Virus record (IMG/VR): IMGVR_UViG_3300006929_000080
Coordinates: 1-28,198 of that record
From: a virus
DNA: 28,198 nt
Direction: 5' to 3' (one strand)
Within the stretch, counting starts at the first letter, position 1. Every line of letters starts with the position of its first letter. The notes beneath the pieces are model-generated. The model saw only the letters and a program-made list of their open reading frames with translations, searched no databases and was not told the DNA's origin. This document shows, piece by piece, positions 4,557 to 25,799 of this stretch. The translations under genes were made by a program, and so were the position numbers.

Positions 4557-5750
4557 ATGGAATCGCAAAGAACAAATACTAAAGTATGGAAAGCTACAGT
4601 CAAGAGTAATTTTGATGTTAATAAAAAAGGAACTCTTTCTGTCGAAGTAGAGGGGTGGGCAAATAACCCTGTTGATGTTGTTTATGTATCTCCTTATTAT
4701 ACAAACAGTCAAGGGGGGTTAATTGCTGTACCTGGACATGGTGCTGAAATTTTAATTATGGGGATAGAAAATTCTGATAGTTATTACTACGCTGGATCCA
4801 TAGTTGATAAAAAGTCTACTAGTAACCTAGATGCTGGAGACCCAGTGCCTATAAGTGGTGATAAAGTTCTTCCAGAGGAAGCATCTTATTCAGATAATTT
4901 TACCCCTGAGAAACTAGTTGTAAAAACACCAAAAGGTCACAGTCTCACAATGTCGGATGAGTGGGATAAGAATAAAAACAATATGCATGTTAATTTGAAA
5001 ACCAAATTAGGTAAATCCTTAATGATGCATGATGGACCAGAGGTTGGTGCTATACTTCTTAAGAATGAGGGTGGAGATGGTCTAACCGTGGGAGGCATGG
5101 AATCGTCTGATTACCCTACCAGAGGTATTATGTTACAGTCTAAATCTGATCAACTTTATCAATCTGCCAAGGGATCTATAGATATAGTGGTTAGTAATGG
5201 GGGTGAGTTGAACATAGAGAATGATTCAAATGGAACTAATTACTTAGCTCCTTTTTTTCTTAATTCTGGTTGTATTAATATAGCAAGCAAATATAGAGAT
5301 ATTAATATTACTAATAAAGCCTTCTTCGATTTTGTTGAAAATAGAGTAGTGAAGCCTGGAAGGGTTATGATTCATGCAGGTAAAGGACTTCAATTAGAGT
5401 GTACTGAGGGAGAAGTTATCATCCATTCAGCTAAAAAAATAAGTATAGCTAGTGAGGGTGATATTGATATGCAATCAGCTACGGGTAATATAAACCTTCA
5501 TGCTGTGCTTGGTGATGTAAATATAAAGGCTGGGAAGAATCTAAACCTAGAAGGCACTCTTATGGCACAAATTCATTCTGAAATTATAGCATTAAATAAC
5601 GCAGCAGCGGAAGGTATGTGGACTCCCATTCCAAAGAGTGGGGCCTTATTGGTTAAGCCTCTTCCTACGACTCCCGCGCTACCCGCTACACCGTCTATCA
5701 TAGAACCCGATGCTAATGGAGATCCTTACATACCCGATCCAGGAATTTAA
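4557..5750 (+). CDS. 5: Central baseplate spike, gp5-like (OB-fold plus beta-helix, no lysozyme domain)
   Basis: This 397-residue protein fits the membrane-piercing spike under the hub. Residues 1-85 look like an OB-fold: 'WKATVKSN', 'KGTLSVEVEGW', 'DVVYVSPYYTN', 'GLIAVPGHGAEILIMG' and 'YYYAGSIV', the last two being the G-x-x-P-x-x-G-x-x-V-x-I-G-like core of gp5/VgrG OB domains. Residues 100-165 have LVVKTPKGHSLTMSD and KSLMMHDGP-type strands. From about residue 180 to 345 short alternating strands with G/N turns repeat every eight or so residues (GSIDIVVSNGGELNIEND; EVIIHSAKKISIASEGDIDM; GNINLHAVLGDVNIKAGKNL), as in the triple beta-helix of T4 gp5. The end is proline-rich. T4 gp5 carries a lysozyme between OB-fold and helix; none fits here. 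A 14-base gap with a weak GAGA ribosome site precedes the start. Confidence 0.75.
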   Translation: MESQRTNTKVWKATVKSNFDVNKKGTLSVEVEGWANNPVDVVYVSPYYTNSQGGLIAVPGHGAEILIMGIENSDSYYYAGSIVDKKSTSNLDAGDPVPISGDKVLPEEASYSDNFTPEKLVVKTPKGHSLTMSDEWDKNKNNMHVNLKTKLGKSLMMHDGPEVGAILLKNEGGDGLTVGGMESSDYPTRGIMLQSKSDQLYQSAKGSIDIVVSNGGELNIENDSNGTNYLAPFFLNSGCINIASKYRDINITNKAFFDFVENRVVKPGRVMIHAGKGLQLECTEGEVIIHSAKKISIASEGDIDMQSATGNINLHAVLGDVNIKAGKNLNLEGTLMAQIHSEIIALNNAAAEGMWTPIPKSGALLVKPLPTTPALPATPSIIEPDANGDPYIPDPGI

Positions 5751-5752
5751 TC

Positions 5753-8700
5753 ATGACACTACCATTTGATTTAAAAAGATTTGCCGAACTACAAGGCCAG
5801 GGCGGGGGGCAGCTATTACAAAACATAGGATCATCCTTTGGTGTTCCTGGGTGCATGATGGACTTAGGTGCTAAGGCATTATCTTTTCTAACTGCTAATG
5901 CTCTGACCTCTGTTTCCGATGAGGTTAAAAAAGCTCGTCAAGCTGCTGAAAATAAAGTAAAAGCTTGGAAAAATAAGATATTATTCGAAATGGGTTTCCT
6001 GAAGAATGAAGATGGTTCAGGAGATGAGCCCTGGACAGTAGACGCATTGAATAATTTTCATTGGGCTAATCAGGCGGGCTTAGATGGTATTGGTGGTTGG
6101 CTTGCTAAGGCTGATGGATACTTGAACTATGCTGGAGAGCTTTATGCTAATGTAGTGGCTACGTATGAAGAGATTGAGAAAATTAAAGAGTGTATTGATC
6201 AATTTAAAGATATGATCGATGCAGGAGGGGGAGGGGGGCTATTTTATGGTCAGCATAGAATTGACACGGATATAAGCCTCATAAGTAGCAAAAAATGGAA
6301 AAGTGCTCTAGACAAGATTAATGTATTTGAATCATTTATAGACGATGCTAACGATCTCCTAGAAAGAATAGATGGGGTCCTCCTAACCAGAGCTATAGAT
6401 CCATCCTTGGAGCCTAGTGATGGAGATGCACTAGAGGAGCTTAAAGGTCCAGTATTTAGATTAGTGTTCGGACCCCCAGAATCCACTCAAGGTAGATTTT
6501 TATTATCCAAAGATGGGCTATACTATGATTCCCAGTCAACTGGTTTAAGTTTAGCGTTAGGTGAAGTAAAGGAAAAAAATAAATTAGTAAATAATGAAGA
6601 TAGATGGAGATTTGAACACGATCCTAACTTGGGTGGTAAAGGTGTTTCTATTACATCCAAAGATCTTAAACAGTATTCAAATACTATTTTTGATTCTACT
6701 ATAGTTGATAATTCTCCCTTTATGAATGACTACTATTATCAAGATAATTTTCTAAGAGTTCTTACAGAACAAAGAGACAAGAGAATTTCAGATATAGAAC
6801 AGCAACTAAGTGAACTATCAAAGTCCAAGGCGGGGGAAGCTATTATTGATAACACTAGACAATCTCTTATTTCCGAAGCTGCCTTAATGGACGATAAATT
6901 AAATAGGAGAAAGAAACAGATTGAGGTTGCTGTAAAGGCTCCTTCTATCTTTGGTGATGGTCCTAAATTTGGAAGAGGTAACATCCCCATTAACGATTTC
7001 TCTTACCTCAAAGATCTTAAGATAACTGTAGCACTATCTACTCAGAGAAAACTAGTGTTAGATCAGGATGATGTTTCGGGTGTAGTGTTACCTATTGAAC
7101 CCGAGTTTGTAGTCGCCCCAGAAAACACGGAGCATACCAGCTTTCCAGAGATCCTTGTGCCAGAAGTTGGTTTAGGTGAGATTATTTATGATACTTCTAA
7201 CGTATCTGGCACCGAGGGAATTGCTTACTCTATAACGGATACAGTTGTAGATGATGGTCTTATAGCTTTATATAACTTCTTAGACACTGAGGTTGTTGCT
7301 CCGTCATCTACAGAATTTGTTGTTAATAATTCTGCTGATGTTTATAGTAAGAACAATTGCCAACTAGTTGCAAAAGATGCCTCTTCTGTATTTACAAAAG
7401 GATTAGGTGTGCCTTACTTTGAAGGAATTACAGAACACCAACCTTCTACCTTAGTAAGCACTCAACCATCGGCACTTGGTAGCTACGCTAGACTACCTGA
7501 TTCTAGAGATTTTAGGGATTTGATGTATAACAGATCTGGATTTAGTATTGATTTCTGGACTCACATACCATCTCTTCTGGATCCTGAAAAGGGATGGGCT
7601 GATAATGGTGTATCATCCCAGCATAGATTGGTTTTAGCGTGTGATAATGTTGGTCTAGTCAGTGGAGCTACCTCTCAAAGTAATATCCTAAGACTTAATC
7701 CAGATTTCGGTGAGTCTGTTGTTAGAGGTTTTGTGATGGGCTTTACTAGAGACAATAGAATGGTGTCTAATACTGATCCTAGTAATAACTTTACGGTGAA
7801 CACAAGTTCCGACGTAAGTTTTTACGTAGCTCCCACTCAATCTAGGGATTCTTCAAGTGCTGGTTTTATAAGTTCTAGTGTGGGGGAGGATTGCGTGTCT
7901 ACTGTTGGATGGCACAAATGGTCTATGAATGCTGCGTCGGCTGGCCCTAATGGGGTTAAATTTAGGAATGCTGCTAAGGAGTATGTCAACATTTGCTTAA
8001 CAGTAGATCCAGAAAAGGATGAAGTTAGGGTATATCTTGATTCCAATTTAATGGGTACTTCTACGCTAACTGATGTATTTGCAACACCTAGTAAACATCC
8101 TCCAAAGCTTCCATCATTCCGAAAGTATAATAGTTTTGAATACTCAGGTGTTTCTGTGGGAGCTAGTGCTGATTCTTACCTTAGTGGGGGTCCTCTGCTC
8201 AACACCTATTTCACTCCCTGGATTATTGGAGGTGGGTATACTGATGGTAACTTCTCTGGTGGTAACTTCCTAGGTGGGGACTATGGTGGAGTGAGAAGTG
8301 GTTTACGAGGACATTTGGGGGGTATGAAATTCTATGAAAAACCCCTTACCGAATCGGGCGTATCTCAGAACTATAATGCTCAAAAATCATTCTTTAAGAA
8401 TGTAAGAACAATTAATACTCTTAAGGGTAAACTATTCTTCTTGTTGGGTGGAGAAAATGCCAAGGGGCAAGCACTTCTTTCCGATATACCATCTGCTAGT
8501 GGTAGTCTATCGTCTCAGAAATTCGACAATGTTTATGTCTGGAATTTAAGATCTACACCAGAAAGGGTTTGGGATAATTTAGAGGCAGGGCATAATAGCG
8601 TTGGGTATGATTCTGCTTGGGGATCACAAACTACATTTGGCCCAGAACTATCCTTAGCTAGTTCTTTATCTTTAGCTTATCCAAATGAGAATATTTATAT

Positions 8701-9271
8701 AGCTAAAATGGCACCCAGCGGGTCGTTCTTAGAGTCCTCAGCAAATTATGGTGGAGTTACTAGGGCTGATTGGTCAACTACTAGTGTACAAACGTCTGCT
8801 GATAGAAATTTGTTCAATCTTATTTTGTCCTCTGCAACTACTACTATTAAAGGTTTATCAGTGTCTAGCGAGGCACAACCTTTCGTGAAAGCTAGAGGAA
8901 ATGAGGTATTCGAAGTTTGTGGTATTTTCTATGTTAATGGTGAATCTGATGCTGCTGTGGCTGCCGCTGCGTCCGATTACCAGACTAATATTAAAGATTT
9001 TGCCGATGGTCTAAGAAGTGATTTATCATCTTTAGATTGGGTTAACACATCAGCAATACCATTTATACAGACAGTAATTCATGATGATACTACGGGGGCT
9101 GCTAAATCGACTGTCCGATCTGCCCAGTTAGCTGTAACTGGTACCGTTGGTATGCTAACTAATTATGACTTAAGTTCTCTAACTCTTCAATCTAATTCTA
9201 GAGATTTAGATGCATCTTCTTGTATAGTTCTAGGAGATGCTTTGTGTAATACTTACCTAGATACATTATAA
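5753..9271 (+). CDS. Large tail/baseplate protein with LamG-like and degenerate SGNH (SASA-type) esterase domains
   Basis: This 1172-residue protein was probably built by fusion. Residues 1-240 are helical, with a polyglycine turn. Residues 335-395 are strongly charged and likely coiled coil. Residues 490-876 have LamG/concanavalin-like features: DDGLIALYNFLD, GFSIDFWTHIP, then VNICLTVD-x-x-x-D-x-VRVYLDSNLMG and GGMKFYEKPLTE before the domain end. Residues 893-1165 follow the SASA carbohydrate-esterase layout: KLFFLLGGENAKG (block I), FGPELSLASSLS, NIYIAKMAPSGS, GIFYVNGESDA (residues 1056-1067), VRSAQLAV and DLDASSCIVLGDAL. Block I normally reads GQSN with Ser as nucleophile; here it is GGEN, with Glu901 in that place. 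The His expected before the last helix appears replaced by Asp1151. The domain may therefore bind rather than cut sugars (inference). It sits between the spike and gp25 genes, suggesting a baseplate-linked host-glycan-binding role. Confidence 0.6.
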   Translation: MTLPFDLKRFAELQGQGGGQLLQNIGSSFGVPGCMMDLGAKALSFLTANALTSVSDEVKKARQAAENKVKAWKNKILFEMGFLKNEDGSGDEPWTVDALNNFHWANQAGLDGIGGWLAKADGYLNYAGELYANVVATYEEIEKIKECIDQFKDMIDAGGGGGLFYGQHRIDTDISLISSKKWKSALDKINVFESFIDDANDLLERIDGVLLTRAIDPSLEPSDGDALEELKGPVFRLVFGPPESTQGRFLLSKDGLYYDSQSTGLSLALGEVKEKNKLVNNEDRWRFEHDPNLGGKGVSITSKDLKQYSNTIFDSTIVDNSPFMNDYYYQDNFLRVLTEQRDKRISDIEQQLSELSKSKAGEAIIDNTRQSLISEAALMDDKLNRRKKQIEVAVKAPSIFGDGPKFGRGNIPINDFSYLKDLKITVALSTQRKLVLDQDDVSGVVLPIEPEFVVAPENTEHTSFPEILVPEVGLGEIIYDTSNVSGTEGIAYSITDTVVDDGLIALYNFLDTEVVAPSSTEFVVNNSADVYSKNNCQLVAKDASSVFTKGLGVPYFEGITEHQPSTLVSTQPSALGSYARLPDSRDFRDLMYNRSGFSIDFWTHIPSLLDPEKGWADNGVSSQHRLVLACDNVGLVSGATSQSNILRLNPDFGESVVRGFVMGFTRDNRMVSNTDPSNNFTVNTSSDVSFYVAPTQSRDSSSAGFISSSVGEDCVSTVGWHKWSMNAASAGPNGVKFRNAAKEYVNICLTVDPEKDEVRVYLDSNLMGTSTLTDVFATPSKHPPKLPSFRKYNSFEYSGVSVGASADSYLSGGPLLNTYFTPWIIGGGYTDGNFSGGNFLGGDYGGVRSGLRGHLGGMKFYEKPLTESGVSQNYNAQKSFFKNVRTINTLKGKLFFLLGGENAKGQALLSDIPSASGSLSSQKFDNVYVWNLRSTPERVWDNLEAGHNSVGYDSAWGSQTTFGPELSLASSLSLAYPNENIYIAKMAPSGSFLESSANYGGVTRADWSTTSVQTSADRNLFNLILSSATTTIKGLSVSSEAQPFVKARGNEVFEVCGIFYVNGESDAAVAAAASDYQTNIKDFADGLRSDLSSLDWVNTSAIPFIQTVIHDDTTGAAKSTVRSAQLAVTGTVGMLTNYDLSSLTLQSNSRDLDASSCIVLGDALCNTYLDTL

Positions 9272-9735
9272 TGGCTATTAATGAAACAATTACTGTTTAC
9301 GGAAATGATATAGATATTCCTGCTAAAAGATCAGTAGAGGGTAAAACCTCCAAGTCTTACGGCTTTAATCACCCAATGGGAGAAAGTACTGGTGGTGGCT
9401 ATTTTCCCAGGTCTTCAGGCAGAAAGCTAATTTTGAATAATTTAAGACAGTTACTTGGAACTGGCAAAGGTGAGAGGGTAAAAATGCCTACCTACGGTGT
9501 TTCTTTACAAAGATTTTTATTTGAACCTCTGGATGAGATAACTGTTGGAAACATCGAGAGGGAAGTGCGGGATGCGGTTTCTAAATGGGAGGGTCGTGTG
9601 GAGGTGACAAATGTTAGGGTCTACCATCTTAATGACTATACTTTAGAAGGATTACAGGCTATAGCAGCAATCGTTACCGTTAGAGTTAAAGACACAGTAG
9701 ACTCTCAAATTAATGTTCCAGTGAGGATTGGGTAA
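9271..9735 (+). CDS. 25: Baseplate wedge protein gp25
   Basis: This 154-residue protein belongs to the GPW/gp25 family, one of the most conserved proteins of contractile tails. Residues 52-110 show the family pattern: KLILNNLRQLLGTGKGERVKMP, with M72-P73-x-Y75-G76, then LQRFLFEP (F84-E85-P86, the usual 'lFEP' motif), followed by the helix 'EREVRDAVSKWEGRVEVTNVRV'. In T4, gp25 binds the gp6/gp53 wedge core and contacts the first sheath ring, and is thought to link baseplate opening to sheath contraction. The N-terminal 45 residues are longer than the bare domain. It starts in a TAATG overlap with the preceding gene and ends in one with the gp6-like gene, the standard gp25-gp6 pairing. Confidence 0.9.
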   Translation: MAINETITVYGNDIDIPAKRSVEGKTSKSYGFNHPMGESTGGGYFPRSSGRKLILNNLRQLLGTGKGERVKMPTYGVSLQRFLFEPLDEITVGNIEREVRDAVSKWEGRVEVTNVRVYHLNDYTLEGLQAIAAIVTVRVKDTVDSQINVPVRIG

Positions 9736-11294
9736 TGATTTTTTCAGGAAATGTTCAGTCAGATTTTCTAAAGTTAGCTAGAGTAGAGGATAGTAAAAAA
9801 TCATCTGTAATAAACTATACATCACAAGATTATATTTCTATTAAAGAATCTTTAATGAAGTATATTAAAGCGGTATACCCTTTAGACTTTCATAATTTCA
9901 CTGAATCAGATTTAGGTGTTATGCTACTGGAGTTGTTCGCTTATGTCGGATCAGTTAATACTTTTCAAGCTGATTATAATGCACATGAGAACTACTTGCG
10001 TTTGGCTAGTAGTAGGAGATCTGTTAAGAACTTATTACAGCTAGTTGGAGTACGTATGAAGGGGCCTATCTCTTCGGCTGCTGATGCTAAAATAACTTTC
10101 AGCACACCAATATCATCAGATTACTCTGTAACCCCTAGTAATAGAGTATTTAACATAACATCCCCAGAGGATGGGGGGAATTTAACTTTTACTTTATATA
10201 AAACTGTGAATGGTAGAGTAGATCCTTCCAATAACTCTGGTGGGTTTACTTTGTCTCCATCAGAAGCTGATAGTTCTGATGGAGAAATTTTTACTAACTT
10301 AGCTGTTCAGGAAGGAGCGTTCGTTAGGGAAACAGGAACATTCGACTCTACTGAGTCTGTAAAGACAATTCCCTTATCCCAATCTCCAATTATTGAAGGC
10401 AGTGTTGAGGTTATAATAAATGGTGACTCTACTACCAGTGGTTCCTATACTCAGGTAGATAATGTTTTCTTTGCTTCTGGAGCCACAGATAAGGTTTATC
10501 AAATGGTTTCAGATGATGATTTTACAGGCACTGTTGTTTTTGGTGACAATAAAATTGGACAATCTCCTAGAGATGGTGATTCCTATTCTGTTGTTTATAG
10601 AGTTGGGGGTGGGTCTAGAGGCAATGTAAAGCAGAGTCTCATAAATACCGATTTTGCAGGTGTTGGAATTCTGGAAAACACTTCAGTCGGTACTGGAGGT
10701 GCAGATGCTGAGTCAGTTGCTCATGCTAAGAGGTATGCTCCACTAACATTCAGAAGACAGGACAGGCTTGTAACCTTAGAGGATATAAAGTCTTTTGGAA
10801 ATTCATACGTAGGAAATTTTGGAAATGTTGGTAAGGTTACTGCGTCTGTGAGAAGAGCCTATAGCTCTGGTAATATCATTGATGTGTTTCTGTTGGAGAA
10901 GGCTAATGATTTTCAATTAAGAAGAGGAACTCCACAATTTAAATTAGATCTGTTAGAGCAGATGAATTTAAAGAAAATGCTAACTAGTGAGTTTGTTATC
11001 CTAGATGGCCTAATACGAACTCTTGATTTGATTGTTTCTGTAAATATTGATAAAGAACTTAAGGGTAGAGCGGAAGTTATAAAAGCTCAAGTTAGGGATG
11101 CCATACAAACTTTTTTCTTAGTAGATAATAATGATTTTGGTAAAACATTAGTTCTTCAAGATTTGAATAGAAAAATATTTGAACTCGATGACGTTAGATT
11201 TTCTACGATAGACAATCTCAGCAATGATGTAACTGTTGATTTCAATGAAATCATCCAGCTAAACAACTTAACTATTACTTTAAATTTAGTTTAA
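9735..11294 (+). CDS. 6: Baseplate wedge protein gp6-like (baseplate J superfamily)
   Basis: This 519-residue protein matches gp6, which forms the ring of wedge dimers around the baseplate. Residues 25-115 carry the typical N-terminal block: INYTSQDY, ESLMKYIKAVYPLDFHNFTE, then SDLGVMLLELFAYVGSVNTF, DYNAHENYLRLASSRRSVK and LLQLVGVRMKG. The middle is a beta-rich insertion including TGTVVFGDNKIGQSPRDGDS and YSVVYRVGGGSRGN, as in baseplate J proteins. The part after residue 325 has AKRYAPLTFRRQDRLVTLED followed by the helical C-terminal domain with RAEVIKAQVRDAIQTFF and LVLQDLNRKIFELDDV. T4 gp6 has 660 residues, so this is somewhat shorter. It directly follows gp25 and is separated from the gp7-like gene by one base. 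Confidence 0.88.
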   Translation: MIFSGNVQSDFLKLARVEDSKKSSVINYTSQDYISIKESLMKYIKAVYPLDFHNFTESDLGVMLLELFAYVGSVNTFQADYNAHENYLRLASSRRSVKNLLQLVGVRMKGPISSAADAKITFSTPISSDYSVTPSNRVFNITSPEDGGNLTFTLYKTVNGRVDPSNNSGGFTLSPSEADSSDGEIFTNLAVQEGAFVRETGTFDSTESVKTIPLSQSPIIEGSVEVIINGDSTTSGSYTQVDNVFFASGATDKVYQMVSDDDFTGTVVFGDNKIGQSPRDGDSYSVVYRVGGGSRGNVKQSLINTDFAGVGILENTSVGTGGADAESVAHAKRYAPLTFRRQDRLVTLEDIKSFGNSYVGNFGNVGKVTASVRRAYSSGNIIDVFLLEKANDFQLRRGTPQFKLDLLEQMNLKKMLTSEFVILDGLIRTLDLIVSVNIDKELKGRAEVIKAQVRDAIQTFFLVDNNDFGKTLVLQDLNRKIFELDDVRFSTIDNLSNDVTVDFNEIIQLNNLTITLNLV

Positions 11295-16466: not shown

Positions 16467-17077
16467 TGAGCCTTAATTTTGTAGAACAACGTAATATAAC
16501 TGGACATCTCCAAATTGCTAGGATACCAAAACATGGTGGGCAAGAGGAGATTGTGTTTGATGATCACAACATTATCGTCTCTGGCATGGGCGTGGGATTG
16601 AGTATCTTATATTCATTATCTGGTTCTAGTAATATTACAGATTTTCAATTTGATAGATTTCAAATTGGAATCTCAGGGGCTGGTGTTACTGAGGCTAGTT
16701 CTGTATACGAGCTAAGTGGTCCTCTGGTTACTTCAGAAGAGTATGCGGGCACAGCGGGAGGGCTTATCACGGTATCCTCCACTCAGATAGCTAATGGATC
16801 TGATAAATCTAATCAAGTATTTGGTATGATACCTTTTAGTCATGTCACTAGAGTTAACGATACCTCTGTAAGGTATACGATTGTATTGGATGAGGATTCA
16901 GCTAATAATATTCAAAGAAGTAGTGTTGATAGGCCTTTGAATGAGATTGGTTTATTTATGAAGAATCCACAAGGGAGATCTTCTGATGGATCTCTCTTGG
17001 TAGCGTATAGAAAATTTAGTGATATTACTAAAGCATCTGATTTTGCTTTAGTCTTTAGATGGACAATTAATTTCTAA
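16466..17077 (+). CDS. Small structural protein, short paralogue of the preceding gene
   Basis: This 203-residue protein is of unrecognised family. The N-terminus ITGHLQIARIPKHGGQEEIV and DDHNIIVSGMGVGLSILYSL aligns by pattern with the start of the upstream gene. The C-terminus LNEIGLFMKNP, LLVAYRKFSDITKASDFALV and FRWTINF aligns with its end. Residues 54-70 read DFQFDRFQIGISGAGVTEAS, comparable to 'YTIHGISFGKG' upstream. The N-E-I-G-L-F then f-x-d-x-x-K then l-x-x-x-W-x-I-x-F ending is common among phage fibre-network proteins. It could be the minimal version of a module whose larger copy is upstream, the pair perhaps making alternating or hetero-oligomeric fibre connectors. It is coupled by TAATG to both neighbours. 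Confidence 0.5.
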   Translation: MSLNFVEQRNITGHLQIARIPKHGGQEEIVFDDHNIIVSGMGVGLSILYSLSGSSNITDFQFDRFQIGISGAGVTEASSVYELSGPLVTSEEYAGTAGGLITVSSTQIANGSDKSNQVFGMIPFSHVTRVNDTSVRYTIVLDEDSANNIQRSSVDRPLNEIGLFMKNPQGRSSDGSLLVAYRKFSDITKASDFALVFRWTINF

Positions 17078-20000
17078 TGGGAAAATTCGAAGACATTTAT
17101 CAAAATGATATTTATACTGGCTCTGGGTCTGTATCCCTGTTAAACTGCTGGACTGATGCTGTTGACAAGCATGATACTTCTAGTTTTTATAATTGGGAGC
17201 AAGATAACGAACCTCTTTATGATTTAGAGGAAAGAACTTACCTTAATTGGGAGAAACTTGGTTTTCCAACTTCCTCTGTTCCTGGATTAGCTCTTGTTGT
17301 TTCCGCAGACTCCACCGCTACGGGATGTAATAGAAGTGTCTTCAATACTCTATCCTCTTGCATAGCTGCCATACCTAAATTTGTAGACTTCCCAGTTTTG
17401 ATTGAGGTTGCTAATTTTGGATCTCTAGGGAGTATGGATCTAAAAAATATTAATATAGGTAGCGAAGGATCCATAGAAATTATTAATAGAAACTCTTACA
17501 GAGGACTGAGTTATGTTTTATCTGGTAATGGTTCTGGTGGGTTTGAGGAGATTGGTACTGATGGCTTAGGGCACCCATACAACCAGGGTCGGGCTTACTC
17601 TGGGGGTAAGTTTGATAGGTATTTCCTCTTTAGTGGTGTTTCTGCTATTAATGAAAGTTATAGAGAATCCTCTTCTTGGGCTCTGAAGCAGCAAATGGTG
17701 GGGGCTTCTGCGCTTTCAATAGCTACTACAGTATTGTCCGCTACTACAGACACTAGACTTGCTGGGAATACTAACGTATTTATCGCTGGTCCTGGTAAGA
17801 ACTCGGGGAACTGGGGTTTGACCGTTGGAGTTGACGGTAATGGCCCTAGGCTCGCGGGTAGCGAGCAGCAAGTGTCTTGTATTCCTTATGAGGAGGCTAA
17901 TTCATCAGAAGTATTATTATACGATTCAAGCTCTTATAATAGCTTGCTAGGCTTCGGAGCCGCCAGCGAAATTAAAAAAGTAGCTTTGGATACCTTATCA
18001 ACTAACTCTAGAGTTTATGGAAACTATTTGGATTCTATTACAATTACAAATTGTAACGGACCAGTCTATGTAAGAGGATTTTTAGTAAACGGTAAAAGAT
18101 CTGTACAAGATGGAGTTGTTGTAAAGAATTCTAATGTTGTTTTAGAAGGGTGTGCTTCTGTGTTAAATAATGGAAATGGATTCTTATTTGATAATTCAGA
18201 AGTAACTCTTACTAGGGGCGTTATAGCCTATAGAAATTATTTACAAAAGGGCTCAGCTAGACTTGATGGTAATTGGTCTGCTCTTGCTCTTGAAGACTCT
18301 AACTTTAAAGATGACACTGCCGGTATTAAAGCATTTAATAGTCACGTAACTTTGAGTTCTACTTCGGCATTTGAATTTAGTATTAGAGATTCTGTGTCTG
18401 GCATATATCCCGTTAATGATATGAACCAGTGTGCTAGAAATACTAATGGTATATCGTTAATAAATTCTGTATTTGATGGTGGTTTAGAACAAACAACTAA
18501 CATGGCAACCACTGGTACTGCTAATCAGCTATACACAAAGACTTACCTTACTGTTGACCATAATACTCATAATGGATTAGTTTCTAAGGGATCTACTATT
18601 GATCTTAAAGGTAGGCTAAGTTCGTTTAACAATCTTCGTGGTATGGATCTTTGGGATACTAATGCAACTTTAGATGAGTTTGGATTCCAAGCAAATCAAA
18701 GGCAAGCTATTAGGGCTGATAATTCTGATATTAAATATAATTCAAGTTTTCAAAGTGTTGAAGGTTCAGACCTCACTGTAACAAATCAATTTGCATTATC
18801 AGGAAATGGTCAACATTTAGAGTTAAATAATTCTAAATTCCTTCCTGTTTATGGGGATTCTATGGATACTAATTACGGTGCTTTAGTAATGTATAAGCCT
18901 CATGGAATTAATAATAAGTCAATTGATAGTTATTATAATATAGTTCCTTCAGTTAAACTTACTAACGGATCGAAGGCTGAGTTTATACATCCTGTAATGC
19001 AGAGAGAGAAGAACTTTGCTTTAGATTATAAGCCATCTTATGGATCTTTAATGTGTCTAGATGGGGGATCTGAAGCAATAGTTAGAGGCACAAAAACTTA
19101 TGCAACTAAGCTAATTGGACCAGAGGAGCAGGAGAAGCAAAGATTTACTGCTGGTGTGTATGCCAACAATGGATCTAAAGTAGAATTTACTGGTCCTACT
19201 GTTATTGCTCAATTTGGTGTAGATGTTCTTGCTGATAATAACTCTACAATGTCTTTTAATCCTCCTAGAGAAAAACAGAAAGGTGGTGTTGATACTAGTT
19301 CGTTTAACTTAGCAGATGGCGCTAACCATACAATGGTTGAACTGCATAGCACCAGGGCTTGTCTAGTGGCTGATAATGGATCCATTATCAACATGGAGCA
19401 TTTGGGTGATTTCCAAAAGCAGTGGAATAGGGGTACCAATGGCAGTGTTGCTGTAGCTAACACTGATTTTAGTCTAAGTACTGCTACAGCAGGAACTCCA
19501 TATTACGACATTAATACCTATGTTAGTGCTGGGTCTATGCAGTTTTACCCCAATCCAAATGATGATGGGGATTATGAGGCAGTCTCCAATGGTGTTGAGG
19601 AGGTTTCTGGAACCACTGGTAAACTTAATTCGAATACAGCCACGGGTGGATTCGGTGGCTTGGCTGCTTTCACCGCAAAGACAGTAGCTGGTCTAGGGTC
19701 CGAAACTTATTATAGATATCTTCATTCAGTTAAATCATTATGGGATGCTGATTCAGCGGAAGCGGAAGGGCTACCTACCATTACTGGTGGTGGTGTCTGC
19801 GTCAGGGCTTTGCATGGTAGTGAGGTTAATGTTAATAACGTACACTTCCCTGCTGGGTGGGCTAACGCATCTTCCACATATTATGACTCATCTTCCGCTA
19901 ATTTATGTGACAGATTATTCATATGGAATATTGCAGATAGCTCTAAACTGTTTGCTGCATACACTTCAGTTAGTGGATCTTATCCATCAGATATTGGATA

Positions 20001-20691
20001 CTTTGGTCCAAGCTCGGTTTGGGGTATCGGTAATGGGTTAGCCTCATACGCGGCCCCAAGTGCAACCCCAGATACTAGTTCTCTTAGTGTGCTGGATTAT
20101 TTTGGAATTGGACCTACTGGTAATATATTGCCGACTCCTAGCGGAGGAGCTTTAAGTTTCCCATTTGGTCCAGGATCATCTCAGAACCAAGGACCATTCA
20201 GGCTGTTCTTATCCCCAGACCCAGTTGTGAATCACATGTCAAATCAAGATGGTGATCAGTTTGGCTTACCACAACAATTATTCTCTCAGGGTTACCAATA
20301 TTCTGGTACTTTGTATGCTTCTGGTGCTGTTAGCGCGTTACATGGGGAGCTTACTAAGTGGGATATGCCAATGAATGATGTTATTAGGAGAGACTTAGCT
20401 ACCCCAGGAGGATTGGCTGCTGGATCTAATTCTACTCTTCAAACAAACGGATTCTACTATGCTTCAGATATGCTTAAGGAAGCTAATCCGACTATATATC
20501 TGGAAGAGTCTGCTGCTAATATATTTGCTAATGCTAAACATTTATCTGTTGGTAAATCTGGATTAGCTAAGAAAGTTCACATTTATCAACCCTATACAAC
20601 CCAAGAAGGGGATTCTGCGGAAAATGGTAATAAACACTACGGGCGAGGATATAAATCGTCTAGTCAATTTGATTTAGGTAAAGAAAACTAA
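17077..20691 (+). CDS. Tail spike / fibre with right-handed parallel beta-helix
   Basis: This protein has 1204 residues. Residues 38-62 contain an anchor-like motif, Y-x-W40-E-x-D-N44-x-P46-L-x-x-L-E-E-R, shared with the next gene. Residues 75-130 (ALVVSADS, SVFNTLSSCIAAIPKFVDFP, LIEVANFGSLG) look like the cap of a pectate-lyase-like beta-helix. From about residue 340 to 915 irregular coils repeat with a short signature of small polar residue plus Ser before a strand: GVVVKNSNVVLEG, GFLFDNSEVTLTRG, GLVSKGSTIDLKG, AIRADNSDIKYNS, VKLTNGSKAEFIHP, GVYANNGSKVEFTG, DVLADNNSTMSFNP, CLVADNGSIINMEH and CVRALHGSEVNVNN. Such helices form receptor-binding spikes, often with polysaccharide-degrading activity; no catalytic pair could be assigned. 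The last 290 residues are Ser/Gly/Pro-rich and may be the trimerising tip. Confidence 0.65.
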   Translation: MGKFEDIYQNDIYTGSGSVSLLNCWTDAVDKHDTSSFYNWEQDNEPLYDLEERTYLNWEKLGFPTSSVPGLALVVSADSTATGCNRSVFNTLSSCIAAIPKFVDFPVLIEVANFGSLGSMDLKNINIGSEGSIEIINRNSYRGLSYVLSGNGSGGFEEIGTDGLGHPYNQGRAYSGGKFDRYFLFSGVSAINESYRESSSWALKQQMVGASALSIATTVLSATTDTRLAGNTNVFIAGPGKNSGNWGLTVGVDGNGPRLAGSEQQVSCIPYEEANSSEVLLYDSSSYNSLLGFGAASEIKKVALDTLSTNSRVYGNYLDSITITNCNGPVYVRGFLVNGKRSVQDGVVVKNSNVVLEGCASVLNNGNGFLFDNSEVTLTRGVIAYRNYLQKGSARLDGNWSALALEDSNFKDDTAGIKAFNSHVTLSSTSAFEFSIRDSVSGIYPVNDMNQCARNTNGISLINSVFDGGLEQTTNMATTGTANQLYTKTYLTVDHNTHNGLVSKGSTIDLKGRLSSFNNLRGMDLWDTNATLDEFGFQANQRQAIRADNSDIKYNSSFQSVEGSDLTVTNQFALSGNGQHLELNNSKFLPVYGDSMDTNYGALVMYKPHGINNKSIDSYYNIVPSVKLTNGSKAEFIHPVMQREKNFALDYKPSYGSLMCLDGGSEAIVRGTKTYATKLIGPEEQEKQRFTAGVYANNGSKVEFTGPTVIAQFGVDVLADNNSTMSFNPPREKQKGGVDTSSFNLADGANHTMVELHSTRACLVADNGSIINMEHLGDFQKQWNRGTNGSVAVANTDFSLSTATAGTPYYDINTYVSAGSMQFYPNPNDDGDYEAVSNGVEEVSGTTGKLNSNTATGGFGGLAAFTAKTVAGLGSETYYRYLHSVKSLWDADSAEAEGLPTITGGGVCVRALHGSEVNVNNVHFPAGWANASSTYYDSSSANLCDRLFIWNIADSSKLFAAYTSVSGSYPSDIGYFGPSSVWGIGNGLASYAAPSATPDTSSLSVLDYFGIGPTGNILPTPSGGALSFPFGPGSSQNQGPFRLFLSPDPVVNHMSNQDGDQFGLPQQLFSQGYQYSGTLYASGAVSALHGELTKWDMPMNDVIRRDLATPGGLAAGSNSTLQTNGFYYASDMLKEANPTIYLEESAANIFANAKHLSVGKSGLAKKVHIYQPYTTQEGDSAENGNKHYGRGYKSSSQFDLGKEN

Positions 20692-23093
20692 TGGCAGAGA
20701 ACGTATTTAAAGACAGTATCTATAGATTTACTGACCCAATTAGGTATTTTAAAGCAAATGATCCTTATTATTGGGAGGTTGAAAATATACCTCTTAAGCA
20801 GATTCATGAAAATGTTTTATGGCTTAAAGATCAGATTGGACCACAAGAAAGAAATTTTGCTAATGTAGGGAGAAGGGACTTAGCTGAATTAAAACCATAC
20901 GTAAATGGAGAAGATAACGTAGTTAAGGTTATGGCTGGCCGCTATACCGCTAGGATAAATAATGCATATAGACTAGATGACCAATTCCAAGTAGTAGAGT
21001 TAATCGCTGGGACTGAGCTTGGTCATTTGGATAGATGGAAATTGAAGCTACTTAATAGTTCTGATTTACAGACAGTAATAGCTAAGGTTAAAACAAGAAC
21101 TTTAGACAACTATCTTGGTATGAATGGTTTAGCTGAGAGAGTTTTTAATTATCCAACTTTAGATTGGGATTATATCGGTGAGTGGGTTACTGCTTCTACT
21201 GGTCCACACCTTAGTGTTACTATGGGTGAGGGACCTACGAGTAAGATACACAGAAGAGCTTTTCCCCTAACCGATGGACACCAAATAGCCGATGGCGTAA
21301 TTGGGGAAACTGAGTTTGAAATGGATTTCCCAGCAGAATCTATTTATGGTTTTTATAACAATGCCTTATTGTCGAGCCACCTTATTAGAAGGTGGAGAGG
21401 GGTTGCTAGGACTGCTGTTGTCGATGTTCCAGAAGAGCTTTCTATAGAAATTCCACCTTTTAATAAGGAAGATTATTTTTATGAAGATGAGGATGGGGTA
21501 AAACAACTAATTGAAGGAGTTAGTAATAGAATTGATTTATTGTTTGTCTACTCAAAGCCAGTAGACACTAGTTGCGTTTACATTGGGGAATATACTACTA
21601 ACACTCCAACTAAAATCACTAAGGCAGAATTAGGATTAGTTCACGGCGCTGGTATTGGTCTCAATTTTGAAGCAAGGGATCCCTCTGTAGAATACACAGA
21701 AATACCCTTACAGAATACTGATGGGAAAAGTATGATTGTTCCCAATGCTTCTGATCAACTAATGACTGATGCTGGGTTTACGAAGATTGGGACTGGGGTA
21801 CATGGATCATTTCCTGCTCCCGATGATTTAATGAATATTTCACCTCTTCTTGCCGAACAAGTTGAATCTGATAATCCCATGCTTTTAGGTCAGTCAATTT
21901 TACCTATCGCCTATATTGTTACAAGATCCTCTGATTCTGTAAATTTTGCTGGGACTAATGTTCTTGAAGAGACTTCTATTGTAGATATTAGACCCTTCCT
22001 TAGAACAACTGAGCTTTCTTACAATGAACGTGCTGGTATCGCTGCCGCAGTACCGCAGTTATCAAATGCAAACCCAGTCGTAGGTAAAGGGCAGTTGGAC
22101 GAGGAGATGCGTCGAATCAGGGATGAACACAATTTTGAAGTTAAAGAATTAGACAAGAGACTAACCAACAGAGAAACTGAAAAATGGCCTAGGCAAGTTG
22201 CAACTGGCTATGTCTTTGGTGGTACTTTATTTGGAGTTGAATCAGCCCTCATAGATGCTTATAGAACGATAGGTAAGTATGGAACCACAGATGCTGAATT
22301 GCAAGCCCACTTAATTTCGGAGTCTAGTTTACCATCGGACACTGAGTTACCCTCTTTCCCACAATGGGACGTAGCTGATTGGGCTGCAAATGACCCTACT
22401 ATAGCTAGTCCAGGGTCTTTCCCATGTGATTGGATAAATACCCATGTGTCTACTGGTGCGGGGGCAATGGATACTACGTTTGGATCATTTACTAGTCAGA
22501 GCTTAACTGGTAGAGCATCTCATTTTGGTGTTGATAATACTCTTGGATCCTATCCTACATGTATTCACTATGTTTCAAAGAAGATTTGGTTAAACAAGGG
22601 TTCTGTGCCTTGGATGGGTGACTACAATGTTGACGTTGAGTTATGGAATTGTGTTCCACTGTCTTGTAGACCTACAGGGTGGAAGAATATGGCCGCTGGC
22701 GTGAACGGTGTTTGGATAGAGAAACATGATAAGTTTTTTATGCTCTATGTTGCATGGGTAGCTAATGATTTTATACACAGGAAGGATACCCACAATGAAG
22801 AGCAGCATATTCAGCTTAGTGGGTCTTCGACTTATAATAGTGGGAATCTTAGTTCCGATCAATGGACTGTTCCTAGAAATAATAGAGATAGAGGAGATCA
22901 GTATGCTGGATTTGCTGTTATAAACCAAGGAACTCGTTGGATTGGATCTGGGCAATCCGTTGCTTTTAGAGGAGCGACTCAGGCTGGCGTTGCTTTATAT
23001 CCGACAGTGTCATTCACTGTAACTGGGATACCAAAGGGGTTCGCAGGACATCATTCTGGCGTTCCAGAGCAGACTGCCATAAGGCTTTACTAG
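20691..23093 (+). CDS. Fibre/spike-like structural protein with shared N-terminal anchor motif
   Basis: This protein has 800 residues. Residues 26-48 read YYWEVENIPLKQIHENVLWL, matching the anchor of the preceding spike (W-E-x-D/E-N-x-P-L-x-x-L/I-x-E), so both proteins probably dock on the same or equivalent baseplate sites (inference). Residues 50-440 are mixed alpha/beta, with EFEMDFPAESIYGFYNNALL and later RIDLLFVYSKPVD. Residues 465-500 are highly charged and heptad-like (LDEEMRRIRDEHNFEVKELD), a likely trimeric coiled coil. After it comes a Trp/Gly/Ser-rich region of about 300 residues that fits a receptor-binding head domain, with several aromatic clusters and His-rich spots (DFIHRKDTHNEEQHI). 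No enzyme motif was recognised. It ends with TAG, and the next start lies seven bases on. Confidence 0.5.
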   Translation: MAENVFKDSIYRFTDPIRYFKANDPYYWEVENIPLKQIHENVLWLKDQIGPQERNFANVGRRDLAELKPYVNGEDNVVKVMAGRYTARINNAYRLDDQFQVVELIAGTELGHLDRWKLKLLNSSDLQTVIAKVKTRTLDNYLGMNGLAERVFNYPTLDWDYIGEWVTASTGPHLSVTMGEGPTSKIHRRAFPLTDGHQIADGVIGETEFEMDFPAESIYGFYNNALLSSHLIRRWRGVARTAVVDVPEELSIEIPPFNKEDYFYEDEDGVKQLIEGVSNRIDLLFVYSKPVDTSCVYIGEYTTNTPTKITKAELGLVHGAGIGLNFEARDPSVEYTEIPLQNTDGKSMIVPNASDQLMTDAGFTKIGTGVHGSFPAPDDLMNISPLLAEQVESDNPMLLGQSILPIAYIVTRSSDSVNFAGTNVLEETSIVDIRPFLRTTELSYNERAGIAAAVPQLSNANPVVGKGQLDEEMRRIRDEHNFEVKELDKRLTNRETEKWPRQVATGYVFGGTLFGVESALIDAYRTIGKYGTTDAELQAHLISESSLPSDTELPSFPQWDVADWAANDPTIASPGSFPCDWINTHVSTGAGAMDTTFGSFTSQSLTGRASHFGVDNTLGSYPTCIHYVSKKIWLNKGSVPWMGDYNVDVELWNCVPLSCRPTGWKNMAAGVNGVWIEKHDKFFMLYVAWVANDFIHRKDTHNEEQHIQLSGSSTYNSGNLSSDQWTVPRNNRDRGDQYAGFAVINQGTRWIGSGQSVAFRGATQAGVALYPTVSFTVTGIPKGFAGHHSGVPEQTAIRLY

Positions 23094-23099
23094 GATGCA

Positions 23100-25799
23100 A
23101 TGTCTGGAGATACCTTTAATTGTGGTGAATACCGTCCAGGAAAGAAACCTTTTATAAGTGGAGGTACGGGTGGTGGAAGGGGGCCTAGAACTGGAGGCCC
23201 TAAGTGGATAACTAAAACCAAAAAGGGTGGACCATCAGGGCCTATACAGGACTCGGGTGGGAATGGACCTCCTACCCCAGGGAATCCCCAACCCGCTGAT
23301 CCTTGGTGGAAATGTGAAGAAGAAGAGGTCATTTACTGTGGCCCAGAATATATAACTATAAAAAAAGGAATCATACGAAAATGTCATATGTGTACTCTAA
23401 AAGAGATGCAAGATGATTTATTGTTACCTAAAAATAAAAGGAAATGCAACTATAGTAAAAAGTCGAAATGTGAAAAAGAGTGTGTAGATAAAGAACCAGA
23501 GTGTGGCCCTCTTACTGTTCCTGGAGGTCCTATAGCGCCTCCACCGATACCGCCAACTCCAGCCCCTCCAGCCCCTCCTGCGGGGGGTGGGCCATCTGAC
23601 CCTTTATCCTTTTGTCATGCTTTAGTAAATGAGCCTATACGATGCTCTGAAAATGAGCAGACTGTAGTAGAGGGATACCGTAGAAAGTGTATTCCATGTG
23701 ACAAAACTCATACTGGATGTATTCCTTTATCTGTCTGTAAAATAAAGTGTGTTGATGTGAAGCCAACTTGTCTAAAGACAGATGTTGGCCCTAATATGGA
23801 GGTTCGTAATGATTTTAGGAATATCTCTGAGTTAACCGAAGAATCTAGAAAATTTGGTGGTGTTGGAAATAGATTAGTAAAAGAAACAGAGAAGGTTGAT
23901 CTATATGAAGAAATGCTTAAGTCTTTAGAAAATGACCCTAATGCTGAGAGGGGAAATTCCATATATGATCCTAAATTTAACTTATCTCTAACTCCAAATC
24001 CATTCTTAGAAAGTCTTCCTTTAGAATCAAATAATAAATATTTAGATATATTTAAAGATGAAGTATCTCCTCATATTTACTGGTGTCTCTACAGCCTAAG
24101 TCCTAGCTCATCTTGGGATGAATCAGCGTATGCAAATCTAACTATAAAAGATATAGCTAATAGCATTGATCCTATATTATTAAATTCATTAGCATCTATA
24201 AAGTATGTTGGGGGTATCCCAATATCCTTGGAAGACATGTTAGAGGTTATAAAATACCTACTATTTTCAAACAGGATAGATGAGTTTGATCCTGGGTATT
24301 ACATAGAATTAGCAGATGAGCATTCTTCTCACTACAAGGTACAATATGAAGGTACCAACGCAGACTCTAAAGTTAAAACTCAAGCTGCGTTGGGGTTAGT
24401 TGCTAGTGATGCTAATTCAGCAGATCCAGAAGAAGCTCCTGATGGATTTAGACCGTATCTCAGAAAGCTTAAGTATTTAAACGAGGATCTTGGAGTTGGT
24501 ATGCCTGTTCTAGGTTGTGATGGTGCAACTAGTGGTGCTGATTTGTATAACGAAGGTTTACAAGTTGTTAGGCTTAAAAATAGTAATAATGCTAATGAGC
24601 AGGTATCTTCCCTTATAGAGTTAGCAGAAGGTGGTGGGTATTACTTGTCAGCATCCATATGTGATAATTCTGACGTATCTTCCGCTGTTGCTGTGGACGC
24701 TTCTAGTAACTTATCTATAGCACTAAACGTTCCCCCAGAGGTCAGAGCTAATTCCCTTAATATAGTAGAGGAAGATGATAGTATTAAATTTACCGCATCA
24801 GCCTCCTACGTTAATTCTGAATTTGGAGATGATTATGATCTTACATCAGAATTGTCTCCAATGTATTTTATATTAGATTTGTCAACAGTCGGGGAAAGGC
24901 CTAATGTTAATCCCATAGTTACTGATACAACTGGGACATATACCATGGTTACTAGTGTCGATACTATTAATGACCACGCCAGATCTAATGGGTACAATGT
25001 AAGAGTTCTTAACGTTGATTACAATGATCCATTTTTAGTATATGCTAGTGGAACATCTTCAATAGACATGACATCAAAGGATATTTCCTTTAACGATTTT
25101 ATGGTTAAAAAAGGTGGTCCTAGGGAAGATAAAGTTATACTCAGGAGACCTCCATTTGCCGTTATTTTAAATCCAGGAAAGGGAAGTAAACATAACCCTC
25201 TGGCTGGTGAATCCGAGTTAGAATCATGGGAAGGTTCAATAACTAGAAATATTTATTTTATACCCGACATAGACATGACAGAAGATGGTACTCTCGATAC
25301 TGTATTAGAAAAATATTTTACAGGAGTAGAGGACGGGACTTATAGGATTGGATTGATGGAGCCTATAGACACTAATAGTGCTGGTTTTAGATATGAAACT
25401 AGCTCTGCTAAGTTCCAAAATACTTACTACTCTGATGGTTCTGAGTCATCAACAATGCCTACGAGAACTAGGTCTGGTGTAGCAACTCTCGTCAGGAAAG
25501 TAGATACTCTAGTTAGTAAGTATGAGATACCTACAGGTAAGATAACTTGGTTTGATATTTGGAAAAGGTTTGATGCTACTGAATTTTATAATATTCAAAA
25601 TGTTTCAGTAAGTGCTGGATTCACTGAATGGCTCATCGCAGGTGGTCGTGGTGTTAAGATTACAAAAGTACTAAGTAGATCGCCATTAATAATCACTGGT
25701 CTAGGGACTGATAAAGATGCATCAATAGATGATCCAATTTACATTACAAACTATGATAGGGGGTATGACTCTTCGGTAGACCCTCCAATACAAGAATAA
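23100..25799 (+). CDS. Large structural protein with tandem eight-cysteine modules and Pro-rich linkers
   Basis: This 899-residue protein is not recognised as a family. Residues 1-68 are Gly/Pro/Lys-rich and look disordered. Two cysteine modules follow: A has Cys at 72, 80, 95, 98, 116, 124, 128 and 135; B has Cys at 172, 182, 197, 200, 207, 213, 217 and 224. The last part of both reads R-K-C-x2-C ... C-x3-C-V-D-x-x-P-x-C, and the spacings x14, x2, x3 and x6 are identical. A proline-rich stretch (PPPIPPTPAPPAPP) separates them. Residues 235-420 are helical. Residues 430-800 are beta-rich, possibly Ig-like, and the end contains TWFDIWKRFDATEFYNIQNV. It closes the tail-gene block, so it is likely a virion or fibre component. 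It starts at 23100 because the nearby ATG at 23095 is in a different, quickly closed frame. Confidence 0.5.
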   Translation: MSGDTFNCGEYRPGKKPFISGGTGGGRGPRTGGPKWITKTKKGGPSGPIQDSGGNGPPTPGNPQPADPWWKCEEEEVIYCGPEYITIKKGIIRKCHMCTLKEMQDDLLLPKNKRKCNYSKKSKCEKECVDKEPECGPLTVPGGPIAPPPIPPTPAPPAPPAGGGPSDPLSFCHALVNEPIRCSENEQTVVEGYRRKCIPCDKTHTGCIPLSVCKIKCVDVKPTCLKTDVGPNMEVRNDFRNISELTEESRKFGGVGNRLVKETEKVDLYEEMLKSLENDPNAERGNSIYDPKFNLSLTPNPFLESLPLESNNKYLDIFKDEVSPHIYWCLYSLSPSSSWDESAYANLTIKDIANSIDPILLNSLASIKYVGGIPISLEDMLEVIKYLLFSNRIDEFDPGYYIELADEHSSHYKVQYEGTNADSKVKTQAALGLVASDANSADPEEAPDGFRPYLRKLKYLNEDLGVGMPVLGCDGATSGADLYNEGLQVVRLKNSNNANEQVSSLIELAEGGGYYLSASICDNSDVSSAVAVDASSNLSIALNVPPEVRANSLNIVEEDDSIKFTASASYVNSEFGDDYDLTSELSPMYFILDLSTVGERPNVNPIVTDTTGTYTMVTSVDTINDHARSNGYNVRVLNVDYNDPFLVYASGTSSIDMTSKDISFNDFMVKKGGPREDKVILRRPPFAVILNPGKGSKHNPLAGESELESWEGSITRNIYFIPDIDMTEDGTLDTVLEKYFTGVEDGTYRIGLMEPIDTNSAGFRYETSSAKFQNTYYSDGSESSTMPTRTRSGVATLVRKVDTLVSKYEIPTGKITWFDIWKRFDATEFYNIQNVSVSAGFTEWLIAGGRGVKITKVLSRSPLIITGLGTDKDASIDDPIYITNYDRGYDSSVDPPIQE
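23313..23504 (+). repeat. Cysteine module A (protein-level repeat, copy 1)
   Basis: Codons 72-135 of the 899-residue gene. Spacing is C-x7-C-x14-C-x2-C-x17-C-x7-C-x3-C-x6-C, with G-x-x-R-K-C and C-V-D-x-x-P-x-C at fixed places. It could bind two or more zinc ions or form four disulfides. It is lysine-rich between Cys98 and Cys128. Confidence 0.75.
23613..23771 (+). repeat. Cysteine module B (protein-level repeat, copy 2)
   Basis: Codons 172-224 of the same gene. Spacing is C-x9-C-x14-C-x2-C-x6-C-x5-C-x3-C-x6-C. All eight cysteines correspond to those of module A, but the loop after the CxxC pair is 11 residues shorter. Nucleotide identity with copy A is low, so the duplication is old. Confidence 0.75.

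Follow-up and report, generated by a model that had tools for sequence, protein, structure and literature searches.

A SASA/CE6-type domain devoid of esterase residues in a T4-like baseplate-region protein, probably a carbohydrate-binding pseudo-esterase

SGNH domains of phages are usually read as deacetylases on the basis of the fold alone. The locus described here, in a window of 28,198 nucleotides (positions 1 to 28,198 of IMG/VR virus record IMGVR_UViG_3300006929_000080), raises the question of what such a domain does once the residues of the esterase reaction are no longer in it. A preliminary description of the window had proposed that a tail protein ends in an SGNH/SASA esterase domain which appears to have lost its catalytic residues and is fused to a LamG-like domain, and had suggested either a sugar-binding pseudo-enzyme used for host recognition or chemistry by a new set of residues. 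The analysis presented below favours the first of these. The domain is probably a carbohydrate-binding pseudo-esterase at the periphery of a T4-like baseplate, where it would be exposed on the virion, bind glycan and contribute to adsorption.

Layout and predicted fold

The protein consists of a base part, which includes a LamG-like region, and a C-terminal SASA-like domain (Table 1). Over about 900 amino acids the base part shares 36–39% identity with most other baseplate homologues (blastp). The LamG-like domain of the preliminary description holds up in a weaker form than stated. In the window, Laminin_G_3 scores 24.7 bits over residues 678–780, below the Pfam cut-off of 27.6, yet 8 of 10 homologues match this family at E up to 0.05 (best E 2.5e-6). 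Comparison of the LamG-like region with the PDB gave no convincing match.

Table 1. Positions in the window of the gene, its domains and motifs, and the neighbouring genes
Feature	Position	Strand	Remarks
Spike-like ORF	4557-5750		Adjoins the 5753-9271 gene on the other side from gp25
Whole gene	5753..9271	+	Open frame, 1172 aa; encodes a baseplate-region protein that has a LamG-like part and ends in a putative SASA-like pseudo-esterase
Base part, residues 1-886	5753..8410	+	Common to relatives that end there or continue as a sulfatase
LamG-like (concanavalin A-like) region, residues about 677-780	7781..8092	+	PF13385, sub-threshold in the window
SASA/CE6-type SGNH domain, residues 892-1169	8426..9259	+	PF03629; AF2; Foldseek 2APJ
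Block I GGEN, 899-902	8447..8458	+	Stands for GQSN; Q and S in 14/14 canonical relatives
FGPEL block, 962-966	8636..8650	+	Kept in relatives
Block III NGESDA, 1062-1067	8936..8953	+	Gln replaced by Asn1062; Gly1063, Glu1064 and Asp1066 retained
His1110	9080..9082	+	Kept in the phage clade, right behind a predicted strand; would be a candidate residue if there is new chemistry
Block V NSRD, 1148-1151	9194..9205	+	Triad Asp replaced by Asn1148, catalytic His by Asp1151
gp25-like baseplate wedge gene	9271..9735	+	PF04965, E=2e-16
gp6-like baseplate wedge gene	9735..11294	+	phrog_219, E=1.3e-38; anchor for finding relatives

The assignment of the C-terminal domain to the SASA family is borne out by a profile search, a structure prediction and a structural comparison. 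Pfam places SASA (PF03629) at residues 892–1169 with E=2.8e-11 and a score of 43.9 bits, the cut-off being 24.8. An AlphaFold model of residues 886–1172, calculated with 19 alignment rows and aided by the canonical SASA rows among them, reached a mean pLDDT of 77.3 and a pTM of 0.83; with 4 rows, three of which are near-identical, the pLDDT was 34.7. The best solved match in Foldseek was 2APJ (E=6.3e-14, TM 0.82 by target length), with 1ZMB and NanS 3PT5 as further top structures, all three being SASA/CE6 proteins. When compared by sequence, the window domain alone finds 2APJ at only E=0.099 (phmmer). A profile derived from the alignment gives 1.6e-34 for 2APJ and 3.1e-25 for 1ZMB, values which test the family and not the window domain alone, as canonical members are included in the profile. 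In the model the esterase fold of residues 892–1169 is retained, with a predicted SGNH three-layer arrangement like that of 2APJ. The motifs also lie where they had been placed within residues 893–1165, with VRSAQ at 1121 and NSRDLDAS at 1148 of the 1172-aa protein.

Esterase residues lost and kept

The window domain shares its fold, the order of its blocks, the Glu and Asp of GESD and the final LG helix with the SASA/CE6 esterases At4g34215 (2APJ), CAC0625 (1ZMB) and NanS (3PT5), but in it the Ser, His, Asp, oxyanion Gln and Block III Gln of these enzymes are all replaced. Across a reference set of 14 canonical relatives, viral and bacterial, 11 alignment columns never vary. Six of them are kept by the window (the structural glycines Gly899, Gly905, Gly963 and Gly1063, together with Glu1064 and Asp1066) and five are replaced, Ser by Glu901, Gln by Gly900, Gln by Asn1062, His by Asp1151 and Trp by Tyr1060.

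The two substitutions named in the preliminary description are both confirmed. GGEN stands for GQSN, with Glu901 in a column that is Ser in 14/14 canonical relatives, and Asp1151 occupies a column that is His in all 14, phmmer placing it opposite H238 of 2APJ and Asn1148 opposite D235. The GESD motif is intact, as had been stated, with Glu1064 and Asp1066 both kept. Three further losses were found beyond those already listed: that of the oxyanion Gln (Gly900), of the Block III Gln (Asn1062) and of the triad Asp in the DxxH of Block V (Asn1148). The oxyanion hole of SASA proteins uses the Gln beside the catalytic Ser, oriented by the HQGE motif of Block III (PMC9487903). With both of these Gln residues replaced, in addition to Ser, His and Asp, the nucleophile, the base, the triad acid and the oxyanion partner are all gone. 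The Block V Asp is also absent from some active members, for example NanS, but the Block V His is not (PMC9487903). The features that mark an active SASA/CE6 enzyme, namely the Ser of GQSN, the His and Asp of DxxH, and the oxyanion Gln with HQGE, are each missing from the sequence.

The Pfam score above the cut-off would also agree with a normal, active SASA esterase in which the first alignment had misplaced the Ser and the His. Such a misplacement is highly improbable, however, as GGEN falls in the Ser column (MAFFT), NSRD falls in the His column by both MAFFT and phmmer, and the oxyanion Gln is missing too.

Selection in a sister lineage and a separate loss in planctomycetes

One sister lineage carries the same replacements as the window at the catalytic positions. 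It comprises the IMG/VR contigs 3300025112_000048, 3300002484_000756 and 3300006738_001263, with a domain identity of 57–59% to the window, and since hardly any differences separate these contigs they provide a single independent comparison. Between the window and this lineage, codon positions 1, 2 and 3 differ within the domain at 0.36, 0.20 and 0.57, respectively. Among the 20 most conserved columns of the family, 19 are identical in the two phage lineages, against 109/184 (59%) of the other columns (Fisher p=0.0007, a pair-identity test based on just two independent lineages). The conserved pocket columns, the codon-position differences and the shared replacements together indicate a selected pocket and not decay. 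As read from the sequences, they argue for purifying selection that maintains the pocket without the esterase machinery, in a gene that is not decaying. The proposal of a pseudo-enzyme is supported in this respect, the fold being kept, the triad and oxyanion Gln being gone and the replacements being fixed in a sister lineage of 58% identity. The loss of catalytic residues and the lack of an extension in some relatives could also be taken for the remains of a decaying esterase, but this is hardly credible in view of the open frame, the 58% identity between lineages with its third-position excess, and the identical replacements.

The GGEN form appears to be confined to the clade of the window and its sister in IMG/VR, at the sensitivity of a scan of viral sequences for LL-GGEN-xx-GQ, which returned just the known sister contigs and chance matches. 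In 50,697 phage records, tblastn gave no match for the domain (even at E up to 10) or for the whole protein, and scans with the upstream part alone, or with A1 or A3, added no new relatives.

The best match of the genome scan came from Planctomycetaceae (26% identity, E=3e-12) and corresponds to the second of the two SASA domains in a tandem protein. Such tandem proteins occur in 9/197 genomes of an order-level sample. Their first domain has AGQSNM and HYH[YF]G, while the second has G[HQ]RN for GQSN, with Ser replaced by Arg, in 10/10 examined; the His of the second domain is gone in most, two retaining KHFG. This second domain is a degenerate SASA domain like that of the window, but it belongs to a cellular protein, where an intact SASA domain precedes it, and its loss is separate by the tree. 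There, first and second planctomycete domains group together (99/97) and the phage clade lies apart on a long branch. The planctomycete and phage losses look independent on these grounds, with the caution that long branches demand. Common ancestry of the phage domain with the planctomycete degenerate domains was considered and rejected, since the latter group with their own intact first domains, which makes two losses likelier. The second domains with GHRN or GQRN (L059, L064 and L074-L081) form a cellular pseudo-SASA group, of which we know of no earlier description. In one of these proteins (L059:3496-3498) an in-frame stop lies within the first SASA domain, being either a MAG error or a sign of a broken gene.

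The baseplate slot and the use of the pocket

The gene order with gp25 and gp6 is the same in L004 and L022, and a T4-like head maturation protease lies at the window's end. The location in a tail protein that had been proposed is supported by synteny with gp25 and gp6 of the T4-like baseplate. A gp6-anchored scan collected 18 loci of relatives. Among these related uncultivated phages, the base protein stops at about residue 886 in six contigs, while in eight it is extended by a C-terminal domain of about 780 aa. In the members scanned this domain is a Pfam sulfatase (PF00884, E 2.7e-26 to 4.7e-30) with the motifs C(T/S)PTR, GKWH and DNG, and it looks complete; for the shorter sulfatase loci the assignment comes from sequence. 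The topologies of the gp6 and base-protein trees fit a single acquisition of each, the sulfatase and the SASA-like domain. No intact-triad homologue turned up in this C-terminal slot, nor was the base gene found in isolate phages by tblastn.

Glycan binding is the most likely use of the domain, given a conserved cleft without machinery, the LamG-like part, and a slot which in relatives is occupied by a glycan-modifying enzyme. The SASA/CE6 fold, stripped of its catalytic machinery, would have been retained as a carbohydrate-binding appendage of the baseplate protein. Its old active-site cleft, now lined by Glu901, Asn1062, Glu1064 and Asp1151 where the esterases have Ser, Gln, Glu and His, would bind a glycan on the surface (or capsule) of the host but leave its acetyl groups in place and, lying beside the LamG-like region, would aid adsorption of the virion. 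It is the gene neighbourhood that suggests presence on the particle and host binding.

A purely structural role in the baseplate, as a spacer or for protein-protein contacts, with the old pocket devoid of ligand, would suit a domain on a baseplate-region protein. SGNH folds are indeed reused without catalysis, as in the OSK domain of Oskar, where the fold serves for binding, but of RNA (PMC12247748; PMC9487903). This role is nevertheless unlikely, as conservation is higher in the pocket columns than elsewhere (19/20 against 59%); the six relatives without any extension also imply that the domain is not an essential structural piece.

The domain may instead still be an enzyme, in which an acid pair or metal site built from Glu901 and Asp1151, and possibly also His1110 and Glu1064, would serve for non-serine cleavage or modification of sugars. 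The residues at the Ser and His places are acidic in each of the two lineages and fixed there, both lineages also share His1110 and Asp1112, of which His1110 comes after a strand in the predicted structure, and sister phages have a complete-looking enzyme, the sulfatase, in the same slot. However, the retained Glu1064 and Asp1066 are simply family columns, His1110 is not a family residue, and L058 has a His in that column alongside an intact triad. We know of no SASA member that works by such a non-serine mechanism, which also counts against it. New chemistry is less likely than glycan binding and, in our judgement, about as unlikely as a structural role; slightly more doubtful still is its specific form, in which the SGNH fold has been re-armed by Glu901 and Asp1151 with His1110 as a new active or metal site acting on host polysaccharide, making a non-serine SASA-fold enzyme on the baseplate.

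The probable carbohydrate-binding pseudo-esterase can be set beside known systems. SGNH domains are borne by tail components in a host-glycan context, as here, in G7C gp63.1, in Klebsiella prophage RBPs (PMC13123978) and in the cyanophage Pan3 tailspike (9VYH). The G7C and Klebsiella proteins are active esterases where tested (gp63.1 and two Klebsiella prophage SGNH proteins; PMC13123978), and the SGNH domain of a related Pectobacterium phage fibre is active (PMC9569702), whereas the window domain is without the machinery and lies in a T4-like baseplate-region gene. Non-catalytic binding is also ascribed to CE2 esterases (title of 2W9X), but the CE2 enzyme retains catalysis, unlike the window domain. 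A literature search found no paper on phage receptor-binding pseudoenzymes in the collection consulted, a weak negative. That a conserved natural family has the fold but not the esterase machinery implies that a deacetylase annotation based on fold can mislead. Furthermore, a single baseplate gene that carries nothing, a sulfatase or a pseudo-esterase offers a natural set in which to ask if binding can by itself take the place of host-glycan modification.

Another viral ORF (L057:11380-13665) has a comparable architecture but retains the catalytic residues; in it, an intact SASA domain (PF03629, E=2.8e-22) lies behind a region that is LamG-like by eye; its reading as a sulfatase-SASA fusion was rejected, as Pfam gives SASA alone. 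Three large ORFs beside the baseplate genes of the window (17077-25799; 1204, 800 and 899 aa) have no Pfam or PHROG match and are possible fibres.

The sulfatase-base fusions of related T4-like phages (L024:3155-5518, L025:272-5533, L028:317-5518 and L031:367-5415) share the base protein and the C-terminal slot with the window, but hold a PF00884 sulfatase with C(T/S)PTR, apparently active, instead of the SASA-like domain. The baseplate-fused sulfatase is a possible virion sulfatase, and a search for its counterpart in isolate phages gave nothing beyond one short weak match. A sulfatase would require formylglycine maturation; no formylglycine-generating enzyme was seen on nine relative contigs, which are possibly fragments. 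In L035 (3521-3551) a frameshift, accompanied by a short duplicated segment, splits the sulfatase-bearing ORF that is intact in L024, and is probably an assembly error.
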